Below, piece by piece: positions 16,545-57,758 of a stretch of DNA of 64,000 bases. The position numbers and the translations under genes were made by a program. Below the pieces are notes generated by a model. The model worked only from the letters and a program-made list of their open reading frames with translations. It had not been told where the DNA came from and made no database searches. Position 1 is the stretch's first letter. Each line of letters begins with the position of its first letter. This DNA comes from Endozoicomonas numazuensis (GTDB lineage: Bacteria > Pseudomonadota > Gammaproteobacteria > Pseudomonadales > Endozoicomonadaceae): contig NZ_JOKH01000002.1 in assembly GCF_000722635.1 (NCBI RefSeq), positions 874,756-938,755 on the forward strand. The letters run 5' to 3'.

Positions 16545-16967
16545 ATCAGTTGCCTCCAGCTAGGGAAGAGAAAAATGGCCAGCTTAGTATAGCGTCTTGA
16601 AAGTGGGTGATCGGAAAGAAAGAAGCACACTAGTACCAATATAACTTCAACAATTTTTGTCGACGTCAATCCAGCAGGGTGTCCATTTCGCTGGACTCCA
16701 AGCATCATTACATGTACAACCCCTCAGAGATCAGTAGGTAGATTGTGGCGATACGGCATTGGCGTATAATCTTCACCATACCTACTGTATGGAAAGGCTT
16801 GGCCCATAACGCTTTGAGTAAGTTATAGCCAAGTGTTTAAAACTGAACGCTTTCCAAACAACATAACTCTGCAATCGGTGACAGCTTGCTCTCACTGAGG
16901 GCGGTAGCGTGCCAAAATTTTAAGCAGCCACCCTCAAAAAGTGGCTGGAAACAGGAACTGCTGCAAC
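16545..16967. other. intergenic region upstream of waaF
   Basis: No supported gene. It carries the divergent start regions of the LVIVD protein gene and waaF, a likely sigma70 promoter (16743-16770), and a short 7-bp hairpin (16925-16931 with 16941-16947) just before the waaF start. Confidence 0.6.
16743..16770 (+). promoter_or_regulatory. likely promoter of the waaF operon
   Basis: TTGTGG (16743-16748), a 16-bp spacer, and a perfect TATAAT (16765-16770), about 200 bp before waaF. Confidence 0.5.
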
Positions 16968-18011
16968 GTGAAGTACTTGATTGTCGGTCCCTCCTGGGTG
17001 GGGGATATGGTGATGGCCCAGACCTTGTTCATTGCCCTGAAACGACAACATCCGGATGCCATCATTGATGTTCTGGCCCCGGCATGGAGCCGCCCTATTA
17101 TTGAGCGGATGCCTGAAGTTCGTAGCGGGATAGATATGCCTGTAGGACACGGCAGTCTGAATCTTGGTGTGCGCAGTAAAATAGCCAAAAACCTTAAAGC
17201 TGAAGGTTATGATAGAGCCATTCTTCTGCCTAACTCATTGAAGTCAGCCCTGATTCCTTTCCTTGCCGGAATTCCCGTAAGAACCGGTTGGCGGGGAGAA
17301 ATGAGATACGGGCTGCTCAATGACCTGAGAGTTTTAGATAAAGCACAATACCCTCTGATGGTTGAGCGCTTTATTGCTCTGGCTTACCCGGATAAATCCC
17401 CCTTACCATCACCTCTCCCAAAGCCATCACTGAATGTAGAAAGCGATAATGTTGTCAATGCATTACATCGCTATCAACTTTCTAAAGATTTACCCATCCT
17501 TGCTCTTTGTCCTGGTGCTGAATTCGGCCCTTCAAAACAGTGGCCAGCCGGTTATTACGGTGAAGTGGCTTTGACAATGATCCAGAAGGGCTGGCAAATA
17601 TGGCTATTCGGTTCAGAAAAAGATCAGCCTGTAACAAATGAAATCATGGGATATCTACCCAGGAACTTGCAGGAACGCTGCTTTAATCTCGCGGGGCAAA
17701 CCACTCTGGCCGATGCCGTTGACCTGATGTCTCAGGCCAGCGCGGTGGTTTCAAATGATTCTGGTCTTATGCATATTGCCGCAGCGCTTTCCCGACCATT
17801 AGTTGCTGTTTATGGCTCAACCACTGCTGCTCATACTCCTCCCATGAATGACAACAGTGAAACTCTCTGGCTGGGACTGGATTGCAGCCCTTGTTTCAAA
17901 CGTGAATGCCCACTGGAACACCTTAACTGCATGAAAAAGCTGGGACCGGAAATGGTGTTGGATGCCCTGGAACGTTTGTCTGGTGAACAGACTCTGGAGA
18001 TTCAGGGTTGA
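16968..18011 (+). CDS. waaF: ADP-heptose:LPS heptosyltransferase II
   Basis: GT9 enzyme that adds the second heptose to the LPS inner core at the cytoplasmic face of the inner membrane. The GTG at 16968 gives VKYLIVGPSWVGDMVMAQ, aligned with the N-terminus of E. coli WaaF; an earlier GTG at 16941 would add nine unrelated residues. Other family blocks: DVLAPAWSRPIIERMPEV, LPNSLKSALIPFLAGIP, RTGWRGEMRYGLLNDLRVLD, CPGAEFGPSKQWP and VSNDSGLMHIAAALSRP. First gene of waaF-waaC-waaG; its TGA overlaps the next start. Confidence 0.97.
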   Translation: MKYLIVGPSWVGDMVMAQTLFIALKRQHPDAIIDVLAPAWSRPIIERMPEVRSGIDMPVGHGSLNLGVRSKIAKNLKAEGYDRAILLPNSLKSALIPFLAGIPVRTGWRGEMRYGLLNDLRVLDKAQYPLMVERFIALAYPDKSPLPSPLPKPSLNVESDNVVNALHRYQLSKDLPILALCPGAEFGPSKQWPAGYYGEVALTMIQKGWQIWLFGSEKDQPVTNEIMGYLPRNLQERCFNLAGQTTLADAVDLMSQASAVVSNDSGLMHIAAALSRPLVAVYGSTTAAHTPPMNDNSETLWLGLDCSPCFKRECPLEHLNCMKKLGPEMVLDALERLSGEQTLEIQG

Positions 18012-19015
18012 GAGTGCTTATTGTTAAGACTACTTCTATGGGAGATGTTATTCATACTCTTCCCGCCCTCACCGATGCAGCTGCAGCTATCCCGGGCATT
18101 CGTTTTGACTGGGTAGTAGAAGAAGGATTTGCAGAAATCCCCCGCTGGCACCCTGCCGTTGATAAAGTCATACCAGTAGCCGTACGTCGGTGGCGAAAAT
18201 CGATCCTGAATACAGTGCGATCAGGAGAATGGCGCAGATTTCGAAAAGACCTTAAGGCCCGAGAATATGATGCAGTCATTGATGCTCAGGGCTTGCTGAA
18301 AAGCGCTCTGATTACCCGCATGGCAAAAGGTCCAAAATACGGGCTGGATAGAAACTCTGCCCGTGAGCCTGTCTCAGCAAAGCTCTACGATCACCCAAAA
18401 ACAGTTCCTTGGGGACAACATGCAGTAGAACGTGTCCGACAACTGTTTGCTCAAGCTTTAAACTATGAGCTGCCAGAGCAACCTGGACAATTTCTGCTCG
18501 ACAAATCCAGATTTGATAATGACATGGTAAACAACAAACCCTATATCATGTTTATCCACGGCACTACTTGGCCTACGAAGCACTGGCCAGAGGCCTACTG
18601 GTGTCAACTTGCCCAAAAAGCGGAAGCGGCAGGGCTTCATATTGTCATTCCATGGGGCAGTGAAAAAGAGAAAGAGCGCGCAAACTGTATCGCTAAAAGT
18701 TCAAACAGCATCGAAGTGTTACCCAGACTCAGTCTGGCAGGTATTGCTGGTGTCATAGCCAATGCCAAAGCGGTTGTTGCAGTAGATACAGGATTAGGCC
18801 ATTTGACAGCAGCTCTGGAAACACCTGCCGTTTCTCTTTACGGGCCTACTAATCCAGATCTTGTGGGTGCCTATGGAAAATCTCAGGTTCACTTGACCGT
18901 CAACCAATGTCCTAAGAGCCAGCTTCCGAAAGCAGACCCTGAAATCTTCACTCCTATGACACCGGATTATGTCTGGTCTTACCTGGAGAATATTCTTCAG
19001 GAGGGATCCTCATGA
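18008..19015 (+). CDS. waaC: ADP-heptose:LPS heptosyltransferase I
   Basis: GT9 enzyme that adds the first heptose to Kdo2-lipid A. 335 residues. The start is a TTG overlapping the waaF stop (TTGA), giving MRVLIVKTTSMGDVIHTLP, which matches the E. coli WaaC N-terminus. FDWVVEEGFAEIPRWHPAVD, VIDAQGLLKSALI, FIHGTTWPTKHWPE and VDTGLGHLTAALETP are characteristic blocks. The rare start codon and overlap suggest translational coupling to waaF. Its last codons overlap waaG (ATGA). Confidence 0.97.
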   Translation: MRVLIVKTTSMGDVIHTLPALTDAAAAIPGIRFDWVVEEGFAEIPRWHPAVDKVIPVAVRRWRKSILNTVRSGEWRRFRKDLKAREYDAVIDAQGLLKSALITRMAKGPKYGLDRNSAREPVSAKLYDHPKTVPWGQHAVERVRQLFAQALNYELPEQPGQFLLDKSRFDNDMVNNKPYIMFIHGTTWPTKHWPEAYWCQLAQKAEAAGLHIVIPWGSEKEKERANCIAKSSNSIEVLPRLSLAGIAGVIANAKAVVAVDTGLGHLTAALETPAVSLYGPTNPDLVGAYGKSQVHLTVNQCPKSQLPKADPEIFTPMTPDYVWSYLENILQEGSS

Positions 19016-24391: not shown

Positions 24392-25720
24392 CACCTAGTG
24401 TAGAAGCTTATAAAAGAATATTTCATTAGCTCTAACTGACTTCCTAAAAAACTCATCCTCCCCATAGTCAGGTTGATAAGAGCTTTTTGAAGACGCTTTC
24501 TCAACCACTTCTTGAATCGAACAGGCCTTCTAAGATCATGATTCATCTCAAGCGCCATAATCTTATCTTTTTGTTCTGCTTCATTCAGGGTGTATGAGAA
24601 CACACCTGAGAGCTTCACTGTATCCCCTGTGACTGGGGGCAAAGACACAAGTGATCCGGAAGGCCGAATGGATGCATATTGGTATTTGAAAGATGGTTAG
24701 CATAAAACATAACAAATACATCAGTATGCCCACTCTTAATAATCGCCTCACGGACAGCCATAGTACTGTATTGGTGATCCTGATGAGCATCAACATGGAT
24801 ATGAGGCGTTACCACATAATCCGGTCGAAAATGGTCAACGATTTCAGCCAGATCGTCTACTGGCTGAGTCATGGCTGTCTGAAGCTAATTTGAAGTGGTT
24901 AAACTCCCTGGAAGTTCTGGAATCTGCAACCCCTGCATACTCGGAAGTCACAACCGTCTCAGGGCTATCATGCATTTTCTTCAGGTGCTCGCAAAAATAA
25001 CCAAGCTGAATCACCCGGTCACTTTTTAGCCCTGCCCACTGGGGGATCGTAATACTGTCCCAGGCTCGTACTCTGCCTTTCAAAATAGAAGCCTGCTTTC
25101 TATCACGAATATAACGATCAAATGCTTCTGGCTCTGCTTCTCCCGCAGTAATCGTAACCACAAGACTGTCTGTATTCTTGTAAAGACCAAAAGCAGCGAT
25201 TTCAGCATCATCAGCATGAGGGGAGATGTAAAGAACTTTCTTTCCGGCTAATTCTGGCTTTTTAAAAGCAATTAGTTCAGCCCCTTCTTTGGTGAAATGA
25301 CAATGCCTTCCTCTCAGACTTAATGTTTCTTCACCTTTAAGCATTTCTATAGCAGGGGTTAAATTGATATACCGGTAACCTTTACAGCCACGCTCAAAAA
25401 AATTGAACATGTCTCTGTGCAACTGACAGTATTCTGAGAGCTGGATCAAAGAGCTTTCCAGAAAGCCTTGCCCTGACTTTAATCTTGAGAAAAACACTAA
25501 ACTCCTCAGATCTCAATGTTTCAGGCAACAGCAATACAGGACCATCAAAAATAGCTTTCTGACAGTCTTTATCACTCACTTTCCACTTATAGTCACAGCA
25601 CCGGCGATAATAGATATGATCTGCAAACAGCGTCTCATGCAGAATATACGTAATGAAGAAAAAAACGATCCAGAGCAAACTGGGATACAGATAAATTCCT
25701 GCGCCCAATATAGTGACCAC
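24376..25720 (-). pseudogene. PIG-L (LmbE-like) deacetylase gene broken by three frameshifts
   Basis: Four pieces on the minus strand in changing frames together make one protein. 25720 to about 25490 gives an N-terminal membrane segment and ILHETLFADHIYYRR. The frame changes near 25490, and the next piece (to about 24885) carries the PIG-L zinc motif YISPHADDAEIAAFGL. It changes again near 24880 into a piece with HIHVDAHQDHQYSTMAV, the second metal-binding motif. A last change near 24663 leads to the C-terminus ending at 24376. Each break can be repaired by one base. Intact relatives remove N-acetyl groups from sugars. Located among glycosyltransferase genes, it would have modified a glycan; it looks inactive or is affected by sequencing error. 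Confidence 0.8.
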
Positions 25721-25814
25721 TGACTGTAAGAATACTTAACAGTTTTAGAGCCCTGAATAACGATTTCATCTTCTAATTTATCCAGTATTTAGGTGCATTG
25801 TTTATAGCTGAGCT

Positions 25815-28032: not shown

Positions 28033-29310
28033 ATGATTGCTTCTCGAATAGACAATAACCTGGTGCGGTTCATACTCCCGCTAGGGCTTCTCATCCAGAT
28101 ATCTGGTATTCACTGGCTTGGCCGTGGGGCTGATATCAGCCAAACCTACACCTGGTTACTGTTTCCTGCACTGGTTTGCTTTCTGCTTAACATTAAAAGT
28201 CTTAGAGACTGGCGGCCGGATTGGCAAGAAATATGTATTGCAGGCTTCCTTATTACGGCTCTTGCATCCTGGTGGTGGAGTCCATCTGAGAAACCCTGGA
28301 TAGATGTGCTGAAAAAATGCCTGTACATATCTATGTACCTCTACGCACTGGTCCGGTTGTCTCAAAAAGGGCGCTTGCTCGAAAAGACACTGGTTGCCTC
28401 TGCCATTATTGCTGTACTGGGAGCAGCTGTTGCCCTGATCAATCAATACGTAATTCAGGATCACAGTTTAAGCTACCGATCCTACAGAATATCCAGCATG
28501 GGGATCGCCCGGTTTGGCGATATGGGCAACCCTATACCTGCAGGCATTTACTTTGGTGCTATTGCAGCCCTGCTCTTCAGCTGGACCTGTACAACTTTGC
28601 TTAAGCCATGGCAGTTGATCCTTTCCATAACAGGTGTATGCACTCTACTGCTTTATGTTCTTATGACGGGTTCCAGAGGCCCACAGCTGGCAACAGCAGT
28701 AGCATTTCTCGCTGCATGCCTCGTCATTAGAAACAAACGAACCAAGCTGTTTCTGGGTTTAGGTCTGATTACAGCCATCATTGGCCTGTATCTTTTCCAG
28801 GAAAGTTTTTTCGAAATCAACAAAGATTCCACCCTTAACGGACGAGTTCCCATCTGGCTGTCGACCTTAAAGCACATCTCTGATAGCCCATGGATTGGTC
28901 ACGGGCTGGGCTATAAAATGTCCAATCTTTGGCAAGGAACTCACTTTATCTATGCCCACAATTACTATCTACAGTCCGCCCTAAATTACGGACTTCTGGG
29001 TTTTTCTTTATTTGCCGGCATCATTGGCTCCACTTTGTTCTTGATAAGAAAACATTGGCACAACACACTGATAAAAATCAGCTTCTTTCTTCTCATTTAC
29101 GGAATGACCTGTATGTTGACGGAAATATCCCGCCTTATCATCATTCCAGATGAAGCCTGGCTGATTTTCTGGCTACCTGTTGGTTTAGTGGTCGGAGCAA
29201 AATACCGATCAGACAACAATACCCGGTACAAGAGCGTTCATACGGCTGAATACAGCGTATCTCAAAATATTAAAACTGCATCGACTGAAAAAAAGGCCTT
29301 CAACAAATGA
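28033..29310 (+). CDS. waaL: O-antigen ligase / WaaL-type membrane protein
   Basis: 425 residues with about ten to twelve hydrophobic membrane segments. The Wzy_C/WaaL domain is marked by [18 protein letters not shown], the periplasmic loop with [14 protein letters not shown] and IGHGLGYKM, and [16 protein letters not shown], where His (about residue 309) fits the catalytic His of WaaL. It would transfer lipid-linked O-chain to core-lipid A at the periplasmic side. An O-polymerase (Wzy) is the alternative; position next to core genes favours ligase. The stop overlaps rmlB by ATGA. Confidence 0.8.
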
Positions 29311-30374
29311 AAATCATGATCACCGGAGGAGCCGGATTTATTGGTGCAGCCTTGGTGAGGCATATCATTCGCCATACCGAGCATCAAGTGATCAACGTTG
29401 ACAAGTTGACCTACGCAGGGAATCTTGATTCATTAGCTGAAACCGTTGAAAGTCCTCGCCATAACTTTCATCAGATTGATATCTGCCAGACTCAAGCCAT
29501 TGAAGAACTGCTGGCCCATTACCAGCCTGACGCCATTATGCACCTTGCTGCTGAGTCTCACGTGGATCGCTCCATTGATGGCCCTGCAGACTTTATTCAA
29601 ACGAATATTGTAGGCACATTCACCCTGCTGGAAGCAGCCAGAAAATACTGGCTCGGACTATCAAAAGAGGCCAGAGAGCATTTCAGATTTCACCACATCT
29701 CTACTGATGAGGTGTACGGCGATTTAGGCGATACAGGTCTCTTTACGGAGCAATCCCCCTACGAACCAAGCTCTCCCTACTCAGCCTCCAAAGCCTCCTC
29801 TGACCACCTGGTACGGGCCTGGCAGAGAACCTATGGACTCCCGATACTGATTACTAACTGTTCGAATAATTATGGACATTACCAGTTCCCAGAGAAGCTA
29901 ATTCCTTTAGTGATCCTCAATGCTTTGGAAGGAAAGCCTCTGCCTGTGTATGGTGAGGGGCAACAGGTTAGAGACTGGCTCCATGTTGACGACCATGCTC
30001 GTGCACTTCTTAAAGTTCTGGAAGAAGGAAAAGTAGGCGAAACCTACAATATCGGCGGACATAATGAGCGTCAAAACATTCAAGTTGTTGAGGCTATCTG
30101 CTCTTTACTTGACGAGCTTCATCCAGAAAAAAAAGATGGTATCAGCAGCTATTCAGAACTCATCACATTTGTAAAAGATCGTCCGGGACATGATGTTCGT
30201 TATGCGATTGATGCCAGCAAAATAGCCAGAGAGCTGGGCTGGACTCCGGAAGAAACCTTTGAATCCGGTATTCGCAAGACGGTCATCTGGTATCTGGAGA
30301 ACCAACCTTGGTGTCAGGCTTTACAATCTGGCAGCTACCAGCGGCAACGTTTAGGTACAGGGAGCGCACCATAG
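29307..30374 (+). CDS. rmlB: dTDP-glucose 4,6-dehydratase
   Basis: Extended SDR enzyme that converts dTDP-glucose to dTDP-4-keto-6-deoxyglucose. 355 residues: NAD-binding [41 protein letters not shown], the YxxxK pair in [17 protein letters not shown], and [18 protein letters not shown]. Starts by ATGA overlap with the ligase gene and is one base from rmlA. rmlC and rmlD do not follow, so the product could go to another deoxysugar or be finished by enzymes encoded elsewhere. Confidence 0.96.
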
Positions 30375-30375
30375 T

Positions 30376-31242
30376 ATGAAAGGGATTATCCTTGCAGGCG
30401 GGTCTGGTACACGCCTTTACCCAGTCACTCAGGCTGTATCCAAGCAGTTAACTCCTGTTTATGACAAGCCCATGATCTATTACCCTCTCAGCACGCTCAT
30501 GCTGGCGGGTATCAGAGAGATTCTTGTCATCACGACACCTGAAGATCAGATTCAATTCCAGCGTCTTTTAGGCGATGGAAAGCAATGGGGATGCTCTATC
30601 CAGTATGCTGTGCAACCATCTCCCGACGGCCTGGCACAAGCTTTTATTATTGGTTCCGAATTTCTAGGTAACGATCCCTGTGCTTTGGTGTTGGGGGACA
30701 ACCTGTTTTTTGGTGACAAGCTCGCAGGTATGATGCAACAGGCTGTTCAGCGCAGCAATGACTGCGCCACTGTCTTCGCCTACCCTGTTCAAGATCCAGA
30801 GCGCTATGGTGTTGTTGAGTTCGATGATGAAGGCACCGCTATATCTATTCAGGAAAAGCCCGCTCACCCAAAGTCACGGTACGCTGTGACAGGGCTGTAT
30901 TTCTATGACAATCAAGTCATTGATATTGCAAAAGAAGTACGCCCTTCTGAGCGAGGAGAACTGGAAATAACATCAGTAAACCAGATGTACCTGGAGCAAC
31001 AAAAGCTTAAAGTCGAAGTGATGGGTAGAGGTATGGCCTGGCTCGACACAGGTACCCACGACGCTCTTCTTGAAGCTAGCCACTTTGTACAAACCATTGA
31101 GAAACGTCAGGGCTTAAAGATTGCAGCCCTGGAAGAAATTGCGTGGCGAAATGGCTGGATTAACGACTCAGAGTTCCAAGAGCAGGCCACTGGCCTTCTA
31201 AAAAGTGGTTACGGTCGATACTTGCTTTCTCTACTGGACTGA
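30376..31242 (+). CDS. rmlA: glucose-1-phosphate thymidylyltransferase
   Basis: Makes dTDP-glucose from dTTP and glucose-1-phosphate, the step before RmlB. 288 residues with [20 protein letters not shown] (nucleotide-binding), [49 protein letters not shown] and [18 protein letters not shown]. The length and all motifs are standard. The rmlB-rmlA order is common in O-antigen clusters. Confidence 0.96.
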
Positions 31243-31403: not shown

Positions 31404-31643
31404 ATGGCAAAGATTGACGAACTCAAAACGATACTGGCGGAAGTGCTGGAAATAGATACCCAAGCCTTTGATGAAGAGACCCCACTTTTGGGTGACCTTC
31501 CTGAGTTTGACTCTATGGCCGTGGTAGGAGTGATTACAGCAATGGAAGAGTCTTTTGGCATCAGCGTAGCCGATGATGATATTGATGCTACTATCTTCGA
31601 GACTGTTGGTAGCTTGCTGAACTATATCAACCAGACTTCCTGA
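31404..31643 (+). CDS. stand-alone acyl carrier protein
   Basis: 79 residues from the ATG at 31404, which has AGGA 7 nt upstream; an earlier in-frame start lacks such a site. Four-helix ACP pattern with the phosphopantetheine serine at Ser37 in LPEFDSMAVVGVI (DSM instead of the more common DSL). Strongly acidic. It is convergent with a minus-strand set encoding a GNAT enzyme, a PLP decarboxylase and an AMP-forming ligase, which suggests that it carries a dedicated acyl or aminoacyl group rather than serving general fatty acid synthesis. Confidence 0.9.
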   Translation: MAKIDELKTILAEVLEIDTQAFDEETPLLGDLPEFDSMAVVGVITAMEESFGISVADDDIDATIFETVGSLLNYINQTS

Positions 31644-31670
31644 ATTATCGGTTATTCTGAACATCCTCCT

Positions 31671-32525
31671 TCAGGGTGTTGCCAGTACTACGAGTTCTGA
31701 ATAGCTGGCATTCACCCTTTCGGCAGGAATGCTTCCTTTGTACTGTTTAGGCTGAGGAAAGTGCTTCAAACGAGAAAGTAACAGCTTTTTACCTTCAAGA
31801 AATCGCTCATCCACCTGCAGGCTCTTAACATCAATTTCTTTGCAGAGACGCCACCGAACCTGAGCTATTGACTCTCTGAACAGCTCAATGTCTCCTACTC
31901 TTTGTATATGTCCTCGCCCTAGACGACGAAAGCCTAATAAATAACAGATACAATCTTCTTTCTTAATCACACACTGCCAAACGTCCAGAGAAGCATGGTC
32001 ATCAAAACTCTGACGCTCCTGCTCACTTAATAAGCTCCTAACTTGTTCGGGTTCTGTGATCAACTCAACATTACTCATAAAAGCAGGGAATGGATAAATA
32101 ACTCTTGCCGCAGTATCAAGATCTTTAAAGCCCAGCTTTTTATAAACAGCGTAGGCTTCTGGAGAAGAAGTCAGACTGGTCAACACCACTGTTTTTTGAC
32201 GTAAAAAAGGCATTAATAACATCATTGAGGCACTGCGATATTCTTCCTCAACAATCCAGGCGGTTAGATTACAAACAACCTGACTTTGGTTCCCACTCAT
32301 TGTTTCGGAACAAATCCCACCCAGAAAACCCACAATCTTTTCGCCTGTGTCGAGCACATAGCCTGGTGACCCATTTTCTTGCTCCCACAGATTGGTAAAA
32401 AGCCTTTTCCAAATAGCTTTGGTAAAGCGTGTGTTATTCAGCTGCTGCAACAATGGATAGACTTGATCAAAGTCTTCAGCAACCGCCGCCCTCACTTTGG
32501 CTTTTGGTAAATCTGAAGCCGGCAT
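31671..32525 (-). CDS. GNAT-family acyltransferase
   Basis: 284 residues; the N-terminal 150 have the GNAT fold (VRAAVAEDFDQVYPLLQQL, AWIVEEEYRSASMMLLMPFL at the acyl-donor loop, SPEAYAVYKKLGFKDL at the end of the domain). The C-terminal half is less familiar and may bind the acceptor. The gene touches the decarboxylase gene (TAATG-like junction near 32525) and is the last of three. In context it could move the acyl group from the carrier protein to a sugar or amine; this is inference. Confidence 0.75.
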   Translation of the reverse strand: MPASDLPKAKVRAAVAEDFDQVYPLLQQLNNTRFTKAIWKRLFTNLWEQENGSPGYVLDTGEKIVGFLGGICSETMSGNQSQVVCNLTAWIVEEEYRSASMMLLMPFLRQKTVVLTSLTSSPEAYAVYKKLGFKDLDTAARVIYPFPAFMSNVELITEPEQVRSLLSEQERQSFDDHASLDVWQCVIKKEDCICYLLGFRRLGRGHIQRVGDIELFRESIAQVRWRLCKEIDVKSLQVDERFLEGKKLLLSRLKHFPQPKQYKGSIPAERVNASYSELVVLATP

Positions 32526-33751
32526 TACACCAACAGCTCCCTAACGTATGGGTGGCTGAGAAAACCCTGAGGGCTGGCTGTTGCTCCGTAAGCACCCGAC
32601 TGGAATACGACGACAAGATCGCCTACTTCAGCAATAGGTAGATCAAGCTTTGCCCCGACAATATCCAGTGGTGTACATAAAGGCCCTACAATCTCGACCT
32701 GTTCTTTTTCTTCGCTATCAACCCGATTAGCGATCAATACCGGATAGTTCTTTCGAATCACCTGGCCAAAATTACCTGAATTTGACAAGTGATGATGCAG
32801 ACCTCCATCAGTCATCAGAAAAGTCTGTCCCCGGGACTCTTTTTTATCGGTAATCTGACAAAAATAGTAGCCAGCCTCACCAACCAGATATCGCCCCAGC
32901 TCCATCACTATCTCGGAATTCTTAAAACATCCGGTACGGGCAAGCATCAGTTCTTTAAGGTGCTCAGCAACAACAGCAACATCAAGGCTCTGTTCACCAG
33001 GGAAATAAGGAATACCTAACCCCCCTCCTATATTGACATGCCGTACAGGGACTGGGGCTAGTTCGCAAAGTCGTTCGGCTAATTCAAATGTTTTATCATG
33101 TGCATCGATCAAAGCCTCTGGCTTGAGATTCTGAGACCCAGAGAAAATATGAAAGCCATAAAAGTCTACTTTACCTGTATCCAACCCAGCTAAAACTTCA
33201 GGCATTAACTCGGCATCAATACCAAATTGCTTTGGGCCTCCGGCCATTTTCATTCCAGAAGACTTAAGCTCAAAATCAGGGTTAACCCGAAAAGCCACTC
33301 TTGGCTTAATTCCAAGTTCCTCAGAGAGCTCATACAGCCTTTCCAGCTCCAAACAGGATTCAACATTGATGACTATATTGGCAGCAACTGCGGACTTAAG
33401 TTCTTCGACTCTTTTTGCAGGCCCGGCAAAACTGATGGCTTCAGGATCAATACCTGAACCAATAGCAACCATCAACTCCTTCTGTGAAGCTACATCCAGG
33501 CCATCCACAAGAGCAGCCATATGCTGAACAACAGCAGGCATAGGATTAGCTTTGATAGCGTAATGCAGCTTCAACTCAGAAGGCATCATTGAGCGGAGAG
33601 TCTCTACACGCTTAGTAAGAAATTTCCTGTCGTATATATAGCAGGGTGTGCCTCCGGCCATGGTCACCAATTGACCAGCAGAACGTCCCGCCACCTGCAG
33701 AACATTGTCTTTCACTGTAATTCTTTTTAGACGATCATGCTCCTTGCTCAT
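32525..33751 (-). CDS. PLP-dependent decarboxylase, DAP/ornithine decarboxylase fold
   Basis: 408 residues of the alanine-racemase-fold decarboxylases. The PLP lysine is Lys67 in LHYAIKANPMPAVVQ; NIGGGLGIPYFPGEQ binds the cofactor phosphate, and GPLCTPLDIVG holds the active-site Cys. It resembles the decarboxylases found in exosortase-A gene clusters and BtrK of butirosin synthesis, which acts on an aminoacyl group held by a carrier protein. lysA of primary metabolism is less likely because of the ACP/ligase neighbours. The gene overlaps the ligase gene by 4 nt. Confidence 0.85.
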   Translation of the reverse strand: MSKEHDRLKRITVKDNVLQVAGRSAGQLVTMAGGTPCYIYDRKFLTKRVETLRSMMPSELKLHYAIKANPMPAVVQHMAALVDGLDVASQKELMVAIGSGIDPEAISFAGPAKRVEELKSAVAANIVINVESCLELERLYELSEELGIKPRVAFRVNPDFELKSSGMKMAGGPKQFGIDAELMPEVLAGLDTGKVDFYGFHIFSGSQNLKPEALIDAHDKTFELAERLCELAPVPVRHVNIGGGLGIPYFPGEQSLDVAVVAEHLKELMLARTGCFKNSEIVMELGRYLVGEAGYYFCQITDKKESRGQTFLMTDGGLHHHLSNSGNFGQVIRKNYPVLIANRVDSEEKEQVEIVGPLCTPLDIVGAKLDLPIAEVGDLVVVFQSGAYGATASPQGFLSHPYVRELLV

Positions 33752-35334
33752 TCATTTTCTCCGGATACAAACAGATTTCCATACTCTGAAGCCAGTGCTT
33801 TTCGGTCTATTTTACCATTAGGATTTCTGGCTAGAGCATTTTGGGTAACGACTCTGGAAGGCACCATATAAGACGGCATATACTTCTGAAAATGTTTGAT
33901 AACTACTTTTTCTTCGAACGGCTCATCATTGACAGGCACAACAATCAGAACAATTGCCTGACCCAGACGATGATGGGGGACACCAATAGCCACTACTTCT
34001 GAGACCAGCCCAGAAGCGTACAATAATTCTTCAAGCTCACTGGGACTCACTCGATAGCCCGAAGTCTTGATCATGTCATCCTTACGCCCTACAAAATAGA
34101 GATACCCTTCTTCATCCTGGGTCACAATATCTCCTGACCAAACCGCCAGCTCTGATGTTGGAATTTCCTGAATGGATAAAGGTGCGGGTTTGAAGCGCTC
34201 TGCTGTTCGTTCAATATCGTTCCAGTAACCCAAGGCCACCAGACTTCCCCTATGAACCAGCTCTCCCGGTTCATGAGCCTTACATGGCTGCCCATTCTCA
34301 TTAATGACCAACAACTCAGCATTAGGAATCGCTTTTCCCATGGAATTCGGACGAGCATCAATCTCTTCTGGTGGAAGATAGCTGGATCGAAAAGCTTCTG
34401 TAAGGCCATACATTAAATAAGGCGATGCTGCCGGTATTTTATTTCGAAGAGCAGTCAGTGTTGACGTTGGCATGGCTCCCCCCGAATTAGTGAAATACCT
34501 CAGGCACGCAGCAGCTTCTTCAGGCCAATTCATTTCAGAGAGTTGCACCCACAGAGGCGGAACCAGAGCCAAACCTGTAATTTTTTGCTGAGCCACCTGC
34601 TTGATAATATCAGTGGGCAAGAGATATTCCAGCAGATAACAACTGGCACCAGAGGCAAAAGCGGTGGTCAACTGACTGAAACCGTAGTCAAAGCTGAATG
34701 GCAGTACACAGAGAAGCTTGTCTTGCTCGTTGTTCTCAAGATACTCAGCAACACTATGAGCACCTGCAACCATATTTCGATGGGACAGTATTACCCCTTT
34801 GGGTTTACCCGTACTGCCTGAGGTGTAGAGAATAGCTGCCATATCCATATCTATAGCCGCTGACTCGTCCCAAAGCGACGCTTCCATAAGGAAATCTGTC
34901 CAGTTTGTAACCAGGCTGGTTCTTTCTTCTTCTGAGTGCCCATCCACCAAAATGACATGATATAGATCAGGGCAGTCTTGCAGGCTGCCTTCCACTTGCT
35001 TATAACGAGCTTTATTAGTAATCAGGATTTTGGCTTTGCAGTCTGTCAGAATATGGAGAACCTGAGGTGCCTTTAAAACCGGGTTAACCGGAACCATGAC
35101 ACCGCCAGCCGCCGTTGCTCCAAAGTAACTGAAAACAGCTTCAGCCGTTTTTGGCAAATAAACAGCTACTCTCTCAGACCGTAACAAGCCCAAGCTTTGT
35201 AGGCCTGCCGCTACACTTTTCACATGTAGGGCAACCGAAGCGTAATCATAGCACTGAGATTTCACTCCCAGAGCCTGGGATAGAGGTCTTTTCTCAGCCT
35301 GATCAAACAGCAAATGGTGTAACAGCTGGCTCAT
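33748..35334 (-). CDS. AMP-forming acyl/aminoacyl ligase
   Basis: 528 residues of the ANL superfamily. AAILYTSGSTGKPKGVILSH (P-loop), LMYGLTEAF, VWSGDIVTQDEEGYLYFVGR, KDDMIKTSGYRVSPSELEEL and the C-terminal catalytic lysine region NPNGKIDRKAL are all present. It should adenylate a carboxylate and load it on a thiol, probably the nearby ACP. Similar ligases are annotated in exosortase-A clusters; no exosortase or PEP-CTERM gene is seen in this window. First gene of the minus-strand set. Confidence 0.87.
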   Translation of the reverse strand: MSQLLHHLLFDQAEKRPLSQALGVKSQCYDYASVALHVKSVAAGLQSLGLLRSERVAVYLPKTAEAVFSYFGATAAGGVMVPVNPVLKAPQVLHILTDCKAKILITNKARYKQVEGSLQDCPDLYHVILVDGHSEEERTSLVTNWTDFLMEASLWDESAAIDMDMAAILYTSGSTGKPKGVILSHRNMVAGAHSVAEYLENNEQDKLLCVLPFSFDYGFSQLTTAFASGASCYLLEYLLPTDIIKQVAQQKITGLALVPPLWVQLSEMNWPEEAAACLRYFTNSGGAMPTSTLTALRNKIPAASPYLMYGLTEAFRSSYLPPEEIDARPNSMGKAIPNAELLVINENGQPCKAHEPGELVHRGSLVALGYWNDIERTAERFKPAPLSIQEIPTSELAVWSGDIVTQDEEGYLYFVGRKDDMIKTSGYRVSPSELEELLYASGLVSEVVAIGVPHHRLGQAIVLIVVPVNDEPFEEKVVIKHFQKYMPSYMVPSRVVTQNALARNPNGKIDRKALASEYGNLFVSGENE

Positions 35335-35629: not shown

Positions 35630-36361
35630 ATGCAGCATAATTTTGAGCCCGATGTATCCCAACTTGAAAAAAACATTCTTCCTGAGAATTGGGAATGGAT
35701 CCGTTGCTCCAAACAGGCAAAAATGGCGCGATATAAAAGTGACCCTGTTTGCTATTTCAAGGAATTTATCCCTAAAAGTCAGCTGGAAGTCATTAAATCA
35801 AAATTCAGGGGTAGCCGATGTGAAATCTGGGTAGAACAGGCAAAAGTGGCTATGAATGCAGGCTTTGATGTACCAGAAATTTTAGCCTATGGCATTCTTC
35901 AGAATAAACATCACTATCTGATCACTGCTTCAGGGCCTGATGGGGCTGCTTCAGACTATCTGATCAAGAAGCCAGACAACAATGAGACAAAGAGACAGCA
36001 ATGGATAAAAGCCTTCGGTGAATATATTGGCCAAATGCATAAAGCAGGCATTGTTCATGGCGACTTACGTGCTGGAAACATTCTAATGGAACCCAGTTCC
36101 CCCCCCCATTTTGTCATGATTGATATTGAACGAAACAGCCATCATAAGATTGTGCCCCTTTCACTTGTCAGAAAGAATCTGGTACAGCTGATAAAGAGAA
36201 TATCTTTCAAAGATTTTACAGCAAAAGACCGAGTCTTGTTTTTCAAACATTATAACCAAAGCTATAACCGATTTGATAAAAAAGATCAGAAGAAACTCGC
36301 AATCGAAGTCATAAATCTTGTAAAAAAACAAAACCTTTGGGGTGGAAACCAGAATATATAG
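35630..36361 (+). CDS. LPS kinase family protein (fourth in the window)
   Basis: 243 residues, kinase fold: ARYKSDPVCYFKEFIP with the ATP-binding lysine, IWVEQAKVAMNAGFDVPEIL, the catalytic loop IVHGDLRAGNILM and metal-binding MIDIERN. Separate from the three kinase genes at 20.9-23.5 kb and preceded by about 300 bp of non-coding DNA, so it is likely transcribed on its own. It may phosphorylate an outer-core or O-chain sugar. Convergent with a GT2 gene. Confidence 0.8.
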   Translation: MQHNFEPDVSQLEKNILPENWEWIRCSKQAKMARYKSDPVCYFKEFIPKSQLEVIKSKFRGSRCEIWVEQAKVAMNAGFDVPEILAYGILQNKHHYLITASGPDGAASDYLIKKPDNNETKRQQWIKAFGEYIGQMHKAGIVHGDLRAGNILMEPSSPPHFVMIDIERNSHHKIVPLSLVRKNLVQLIKRISFKDFTAKDRVLFFKHYNQSYNRFDKKDQKKLAIEVINLVKKQNLWGGNQNI

Positions 36362-57227: not shown

Positions 57228-57758
57228 TTAACGCTTCGCTTTCTTCTTAGCTAGAGCCTTTTTAGCAGCAGCCTTGGGAGCTGGAGCTTTTTTCTTAGCT
57301 ACAGCTTTCTTGGCAGCCGCTTTACGGACTGGGGCTTTTTTCTTAGCAGGCGCCTTTTTCTTGGCAGTGGCTTTTTTCGCTACAGGTTTCTTTTTAGCAG
57401 CTGCCTTCTTAGCGGGTGCTTTTTTCTTGGCAGTTGTTTTCTTAGCGGTAGTCTTTTTCTTAGCCGGTGCCTTTTTCTTGGCTACTGTCTTTTTAGCGGT
57501 CGCTTTTTTAGCAGGCGCTTTTTTCTTGGCGGGTGCTTTCTTCTTGGGAGTGGCTTTAGCTTTAGCCTTTGCTTTCTTCAAAGACTCTTTAGCCTTATCC
57601 AGTTTTTTCTTAAGAGCTTCAATTTCTTTTTCTAGCGTCTTAACTGGATCTACCTTGCGGGTAGTCTTCTTAACTGCAGTTTTTTTAGCTGCTGGTTTTT
57701 TAGCTGCTGGTTTTTTAACAGCCTTCTTAACGGCTGGTTTCCTTTTAGCTACAGGCAT
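57228..57758 (-). CDS. algP: AlgP-type histone H1-like protein
   Basis: 176 residues, almost entirely Lys, Ala and Pro. The N-terminal 75 residues include a helix (VKTLEKEIEALKKKLDKAKE), then a long array of imperfect KKAPAKKA / KKTTAKKT units to the C-terminus. AlgP of Pseudomonas has the same plan and binds DNA. Repetitive DNA here makes the opposite strand open too, which is a by-product. Next to an FKBP gene and rsd, as in Pseudomonas. The repeats can change length by recombination. Confidence 0.9.
   Translation of the reverse strand: MPVAKRKPAVKKAVKKPAAKKPAAKKTAVKKTTRKVDPVKTLEKEIEALKKKLDKAKESLKKAKAKAKATPKKKAPAKKKAPAKKATAKKTVAKKKAPAKKKTTAKKTTAKKKAPAKKAAAKKKPVAKKATAKKKAPAKKKAPVRKAAAKKAVAKKKAPAPKAAAKKALAKKKAKR

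Follow-up and report, generated by a model that had tools for sequence, protein, structure and literature searches.

Here, we analyzed a four-gene set in a stretch of 64,000 nucleotides of the Endozoicomonas numazuensis genome (contig NZ_JOKH01000002.1, positions 874,756 to 938,755; hereafter the window), which encodes an acyl carrier protein (ACP), an AMP-forming ligase, a pyridoxal phosphate (PLP)-dependent decarboxylase and a GNAT-like protein. The best explanation of the whole is that aspartate would be loaded onto the carrier, decarboxylated there to beta-alanyl-ACP and used to decorate lipopolysaccharide (LPS), an account whose chances we regard as evenly balanced. A previous interpretation of the DNA, made from its letters alone (the sequence-only reading), had placed these four genes inside an LPS region, and all four open reading frames (ORFs) were recovered as follows:

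31404-31643, plus strand: stand-alone ACP of 79 aa (PF00550, above the cut-off at E 3.8e-10; motif PEFDSMAVV)
31671-32525, minus strand: GNAT-like protein of 284 aa, candidate transferase (sub-threshold GNAT Pfam matches only)
32525-33751, minus strand: PLP decarboxylase (TIGR03099, 577 bits against a cut-off of 478)
33748-35334, minus strand: ANL ligase with a VinN-type pocket (TIGR03098, 746 bits against a cut-off of 592)

We propose that the ligase would adenylate L-aspartate and attach it via the side-chain carboxyl to the ACP's pantetheine arm, and that the PLP decarboxylase would then remove the free alpha-carboxyl to yield beta-alanyl-ACP. Decarboxylation after loading makes chemical sense, since the side-chain carboxyl is held in the thioester while the alpha-amino and alpha-carboxyl groups remain free for the PLP enzyme. 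In the last step, the beta-alanyl group would be placed on an LPS glycan, in a lineage without a detected exosortase; in the own genus the GNAT-like protein would be the most likely transferase, with an amine or hydroxyl group of a sugar as acceptor. That an acidic amino acid is decarboxylated on a carrier is the part that we hold to be quite probable, the conversion of aspartate to a beta-alanyl group is moderately favored, and for LPS or a related glycan as the target the balance is level.

The ligase belongs to the AMP-binding enzymes (PF00501, E 5e-76). TIGR03098 and TIGR03099 are both NCBIfam 'hypoth_equivalog' families, described as 'exosortase A system-associated' and without known function. 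In a comparison of the whole-length ligase with PDB sequences, gramicidin synthase, a multi-domain protein, ranked first, and among stand-alone enzymes VinN (3wvn) matched best, PDB codes being assigned to VinN according to the accessible excerpts of PMC11253843. When the pocket segment (ligase residues 205-330) was searched against 177,635 distinct PDB sequences at E up to 0.001, VinN was on top at 4.4e-12 and only 4-chlorobenzoyl-CoA ligases followed, at 1.7e-4 or weaker, which leaves a gap of more than seven orders of magnitude between VinN and the next family; other beta-amino acid ligases in the PDB gave no match at this threshold. As described in the excerpts of PMC11253843, VinN takes 3-methylaspartate as a beta-amino acid, with D230 placed at the amine, K330 and R331 on a loop shortened by one residue, and the bulkier residues F231 and S299 opposite; that R331 may contact the substrate carboxylate is our own reading of the 'key residues' in these excerpts. 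D216, Y217, S284 and R316 of the ligase align with VinN D230, F231, S299 and R331 (a numbering offset of 16 puts the aligned D, F, S, K and R of VinN at 230, 231, 299, 330 and 331), and the alignment has no gap within the pocket loop. The VinN-type pattern of an Asp for the amine, a bulky next residue, the opposite Ser and an Arg in the short loop is present in the ligase as judged from this alignment. Moreover, D216, Y217 and R316 do not vary among the ligases aligned (18/18), and the equivalents of VinN Asp230 and Arg331 were recognized by motif in all 33 ligases recovered from 46 loci, exosortase-bearing genomes included. In the ligases of the sister genus (g7) Thr replaces Ser284, and the ligase of genome G164 carries Ala for Tyr, with no Ser motif recognized.

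The VinN-like pocket makes aspartate to beta-alanyl likelier than glutamate to gamma-aminobutyrate (GABA). Furthermore, the E subunit of glutamate mutase had no match in the own genome, and 3-methylaspartate is therefore an unlikely substrate and L-aspartate a likely one. The sequence-only reading had proposed an amino-acyl decoration: its idea that an amino acid is loaded and decarboxylated on a carrier probably holds, whereas the GABA-like product that it gave as an example gives way to a likelier beta-alanyl group.

Among solved chains, the decarboxylase matched BtrK best (242 bits), ahead of 6knh (160 bits), deposited as a probable diaminopimelate decarboxylase and presumably SbnH, and of 2p3e (159 bits), the best plainly named LysA chain. 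The decarboxylase and BtrK have in common the stretches KMxGxPxQFGxD, HHH and CTPxD, where LysA carries RPSxYxAxH and CETGD, which hold the far end of diaminopimelate. In the decarboxylase tree, BtrK fell on the side of the set decarboxylases across a 100/100 branch from LysA, its own branch being long and its place unsure; on scores and shared stretches, the expectation that the enzyme stands nearer to BtrK than to LysA was supported. A score of 254 bits on the lysA model is what an ordinary diaminopimelate decarboxylase has in its favor as an explanation, yet this lies below the cut-off of 298, the LysA stretches are missing, and a separate LysA is encoded in the same genome, which makes that function extremely unlikely and also led us to reject the enzyme as a second LysA. 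Three proteins of this fold were found in the own genome: one reaches 531 bits on the lysA model and has a dapF-like gene immediately after it, one was named speA by eye and adjoins a spermidine-synthase-like gene, and the third is the set decarboxylase. The possibility raised beforehand that the latter might be the only LysA of the genome hence falls away.

The BtrK likeness, with its shared stretches, would suit a butirosin-like route in which the ligase loads glutamate to give gamma-aminobutyryl-ACP. However, BtrJ, the butirosin ligase, is an ATP-grasp enzyme, whereas the set ligase is AMP-forming and has a pocket like that of VinN, an enzyme for 3-methylaspartate and, weakly, aspartate; we consider the glutamate route improbable, and the BtrJ parallel for the ligase was rejected. 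Supply of free beta-alanine for pantothenate by a carrier-bound route would share the predicted beta-alanyl thioester, but it would leave the LPS setting and the GNAT-like protein unexplained and is more improbable still.

The carrier serine of the ACP lies in the DSM motif, and its ATG start has AGGA 7 bases ahead. Searched against the PDB, the profile of the ACP family matched 2lki, which we take to be a Nitrosomonas carrier protein solved in the holo form, at 5e-29, the next ACP following at 7e-11. The ACP gene is convergent on the GNAT-like gene, and the genes for ligase, decarboxylase and GNAT-like protein overlap by their starts and stops (ATGA and TAATG) and are therefore read as one operon. 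Since the GC content of the set (0.457) equals that of the window (0.462), the set is no obvious foreign insert. TIGR03099 is present in 11 of 11 genomes of the own genus and 10 of 11 of the sister genus, in none of 15 other genomes of the family and in one of 21 of the wider order. In the loci fetched from 20 TIGR03099-positive relatives of the two genera, ligase and ACP stood beside the decarboxylase in every case (20/20), with the ACP found in all of them, and given this conservation across two genera a chance origin of the gene set is excluded.

The surroundings of the set comprise the following features:

29307-31242, plus strand: rmlB- and rmlA-like genes, immediately preceding the ACP gene (named from sequence by eye)
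16941-19015, plus strand: two heptosyltransferase-family genes (PF01075; waaF/waaC-like by eye)
35630-36361, plus strand: Kdo/WaaP-family kinase (PF06293, E 1.4e-13), Kdo being 3-deoxy-D-manno-oct-2-ulosonic acid
24410-25769, minus strand: broken gene for a PIG-L-type de-N-acetylase, in six pieces as compared with a 466-aa relative

On the ACP side, the rmlB/rmlA-like genes are accompanied by genes for an O-antigen-ligase-type protein (PF04932), glycosyltransferases and Kdo-type kinases and by the two heptosyltransferase-family genes, and the ligase side holds a Kdo-type kinase, a glycosyltransferase, argH, a histidine kinase with a response regulator, and hem genes. With its heptosyltransferase family, Kdo-type kinases, glycosyltransferases and O-antigen-ligase-type protein, the region is an LPS biosynthesis locus by gene content. 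The three-gene core of the sister genus is flanked by heptosyltransferase genes on one side and argH on the other: the ACP gene adjoins the heptosyltransferase pair in 8 of 10 loci, the contigs of the other two ending within about 0.6 kb past the ACP gene, and argH adjoins the ligase gene in 10 of 10. The surroundings in the own genus (g1) are longer and variable, and homologs of the LPS region of the window were found in 10 of 10 loci. A Kdo/WaaP-family kinase occurs in 6 of the 20 relative loci, all of the own genus, and homologs of the rmlB/rmlA-like genes lie near the set in some relatives. The LPS context proposed earlier thus holds for both genera.

Each piece of the PIG-L-type gene in the window lies in a different frame from the next. 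Intact genes in relatives encode about 450-470 aa, and PF02585 was above its cut-off in the five intact relatives scanned (5/5). Long matches were found in 8 of 10 loci of the own genus; of the others, genome G004, in which the GNAT-like gene is a remnant, retains the last 93 residues, and one locus has no match in the 19 kb fetched. No locus of the sister genus gave a match. In relatives, the PIG-L product is a possible maker of the acceptor amine, and release of an amine by a deacetylase, followed by its re-acylation by a transferase, would make a coherent pair of steps. Two further features of the window were noted: a capsule-synthesis-like protein (PF05159; 37629-38784, minus strand) seems split into ORFs of 275 aa and 107 aa in different frames, and an ORF at 57228-57758 (minus strand), opposite a low-complexity FFLA-rich repeat, is perhaps lysine/alanine-rich and AlgP- or histone H1-like by eye.

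The GNAT-like protein is full-length in the own genome and in nine of ten relatives of the genus, and in 10 of these 11 genomes its gene is no more than 0.4 kb away from the decarboxylase gene; in genomes G002 and G003 a gap of under 0.4 kb separates the two genes. In G003, a small ORF between them (L035 10245-10490) looks by eye like an antitoxin of the Phd type. The label GNAT is a weak one: Pfam matches stay below the cut-off (best E 0.018 for the window protein and 0.0002 for one ortholog), four of five homologs scanned gave sub-threshold matches to GNAT models and the fifth none, and the family profile searched against the PDB reached at best E 0.016, with a GNAT chain over 43 residues only. 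A 36-37% identical homolog precedes kdsC- and kdsB-like genes in four gammaproteobacterial metagenome-assembled genomes (MAGs; L025, L026, L027 and L028), all of which have an exosortase (4/4); a kdsD-like gene follows in three, and the contig of the fourth ends. These kds names were given by us from HAD, CTP_transf_3 and SIS-CBS domains. In two of the four MAGs, the ligase gene lies 1.7 kb from the GNAT homolog on the opposite strand, with a TIGR01212 gene between them. A radical SAM gene precedes the GNAT homolog in all four (TIGR01212 in L027); it was rejected as a partner, being the tRNA-modification enzyme TIGR01212. Among 369 genomes of the class, the GNAT profile matched in four, namely the own genome and three distant ones, one of these over residues 5-136 only. 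Neither ligase nor decarboxylase was recognized in the stretches around the three distant matches; one of these genomes (G379) has a TIGR03099 match about 200 kb away, and the other two have none at 1e-60.

As regards exosortase, the own genome (6.34 Mb in 31 contigs, with a stated completeness of 100%) gave no PF09721 (exosortase) or PF07589 (PEP-CTERM) match at E up to 1. The absence of an exosortase from the window, as stated by the sequence-only reading, can thereby be widened to the lack of a match in the whole genome, and a complete exosortase system elsewhere in it, which that reading had envisaged as a competing explanation of the set, was rejected for want of such a match. None of the 20 set-bearing relatives of the two genera has an exosortase above the cut-off (G027 gave a sub-threshold 19.5 versus 25.7 bits); among the 21 TIGR03099-positive relatives, only G040, from the wider order, passed it. 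In the class sample, TIGR03099 was detected in 43 of 369 genomes at E up to 1e-100 (with 37 exceeding the cut-off), and of the ten TIGR03099 genomes without exosortase eight are given as at least 98% complete. In the tree, whose outgroup branches are long and whose root is a midpoint only, exosortase-free sets appear at several places. All 21 decarboxylases from the two genera group in a single clade (100/100), surrounded by sequences from exosortase-bearing genomes; its sister (99/94) consists of two MAG sequences with a GNAT homolog also near the set. Separately, two near-complete genomes without an exosortase match (L093 and L098, from G215 and G325) encode a divergent decarboxylase below the TIGR03099 cut-off, which in L093 adjoins a ligase with the same pocket (YGLTEAFRA).

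Several observations weigh against a beta-alanyl decoration of LPS placed by the GNAT-like protein. K330 of VinN is not conserved but corresponds to F315 in the ligase, so that the contact pair is kept only in part. The broken PIG-L copy in the own genome speaks against this enzyme being needed. The GNAT-like gene is absent from 10 of 10 sister-genus loci and from the same ten genomes searched whole, it has decayed to a C-terminal remnant in one relative of the own genus (G004), and two MAGs with a GNAT homolog have no TIGR03099 match above the cut-off, an absence that counts for little because MAGs are incomplete. Exosortase was found in 32 of the 42 other gammaproteobacterial TIGR03099 genomes of the class sample, which makes exosortase-free sets a minority, and since the ligases of exosortase-bearing carriers have the same pocket, the original role may have been in exopolysaccharide and not in LPS.

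The GNAT-like protein had previously been called the natural transferase, and in the own genus it stays a candidate, with transfer to LPS plausible. This role is weakened because the sister genus keeps ligase, decarboxylase and ACP without it and because the homolog in two MAGs stands in a Kdo-type operon while these MAGs gave no TIGR03099 match above the cut-off; we rate it as possible, at somewhat less than an even chance. Compatible with beta-alanyl decoration of LPS, and only just short of an even chance, is that the GNAT-like protein is a separate LPS enzyme, e.g., a sugar acetyltransferase, that travels with the set while the true transferase is encoded elsewhere. Its absence from the sister genus and its place at the head of the kdsC-kdsB-like run in the four MAGs, two of them lacking a TIGR03099 match above the cut-off, agree with this. 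The start-stop overlap with the decarboxylase gene in the window, the closeness of the two genes throughout most of the genus and the distance of less than 2 kb from the ligase in the sister MAG lineage argue against it.

The same carrier chemistry might also deliver its product to an exopolysaccharide, a protein or a small molecule, the LPS neighborhood being a chance landing kept by descent. This would suit families named for exosortase A clusters and the frequency of exosortase in other decarboxylase genomes, as well as G040, where the set occurs with PrsT and hydrolases 1 and 2, and MAG L027, where it lies near the XrtA-system ATPase. On the other hand, two genera without an exosortase above the cut-off keep the set with LPS genes despite differing neighbors, and no XrtA-locus probe protein was the best match of any called ORF in the window or the 20 relative loci; we judge a target other than LPS to be unlikely on balance.

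If beta-alanyl decoration of LPS is correct, two 'hypoth_equivalog' NCBI families would gain a testable substrate and product, and a chemistry of natural products, in which aspartate is loaded and decarboxylated on a carrier, would put positively charged beta-alanyl groups on surface glycans. To our knowledge, LPS is decorated with amines via aminoarabinose, phosphoethanolamine and D-alanine, and a beta-alanyl route would differ from these. Since the ligase and decarboxylase families are named, widespread and functionally blank, the prediction reaches beyond the own genome. More speculatively, and with a limited chance of being right, TIGR03098/TIGR03099 could drive a widespread pathway that donates carrier-bound beta-alanyl groups to envelope glycans; in two genera with no exosortase detected, this pathway would have been redirected to the LPS inner core, with the GNAT-like protein placing beta-alanyl on Kdo or on a neighboring, possibly de-N-acetylated, sugar. 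Our literature search found nothing that joins exosortase with this ligase and decarboxylase, with BtrK, or with a decarboxylase and an acyl carrier protein, nor anything on 'exosortase A system-associated', and there was no mention of beta-alanyl or 4-aminobutanoyl among the 20 matches listed of 502; most subscription journals lie outside this search, so novelty is not shown. Broader exosortase terms led to one paper, whose excerpts mention exosortase apart from any such ligase or decarboxylase.

Comparison with known systems places the set as follows. Like DltA/DltC of D-alanylation, it pairs an ANL ligase with a small carrier and would act on a surface polymer; unlike them, it includes a decarboxylase, and its ligase reaches 176 bits on the DltA model NF003417 against a cut-off of 476, so that a Dlt system was rejected. 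A defense system was likewise rejected, with no PADLOC match for ligase, decarboxylase or GNAT-like protein. Both set proteins pass the curated cut-offs of the exosortase A-associated families TIGR03098 and TIGR03099, and sets of that kind likewise carry on the other strand a gene for an ACP of this family, which converges directly in L027 and is separated by two hydrolase genes in L024; in contrast, the E. numazuensis set has LPS neighbors, neither hydrolase 1 nor hydrolase 2 was found at its locus, and the genome gave no exosortase or PEP-CTERM match. The parallel to BtrI, BtrJ and BtrK drawn by the sequence-only reading stands in part: the set has an ACP and a decarboxylase whose best solved match is BtrK, whereas its ligase is AMP-forming with a VinN-type pocket instead of ATP-grasp like BtrJ, and its predicted substrate is aspartate instead of glutamate. 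In vicenistatin biosynthesis, according to the accessible excerpts of PMC11284099, VinN charges VinL, a stand-alone ACP, with 3-methylaspartate, which the PLP-dependent VinO decarboxylates only after loading; there VinN takes aspartate weakly, and FlvN of the fluvirucin B2 pathway recognizes aspartate. The set resembles VinN/VinL/VinO in its ANL ligase with all pocket residues but one, its stand-alone ACP and its PLP decarboxylase (VinO being compared by described function only), and differs in that the latter system makes a polyketide starter unit in actinomycetes and in that glutamate mutase was not found in the own genome. Taken together, the earlier interpretation appears right in kind, with VinN/VinL/VinO as the better precedent and a beta-alanyl group as the better candidate product.

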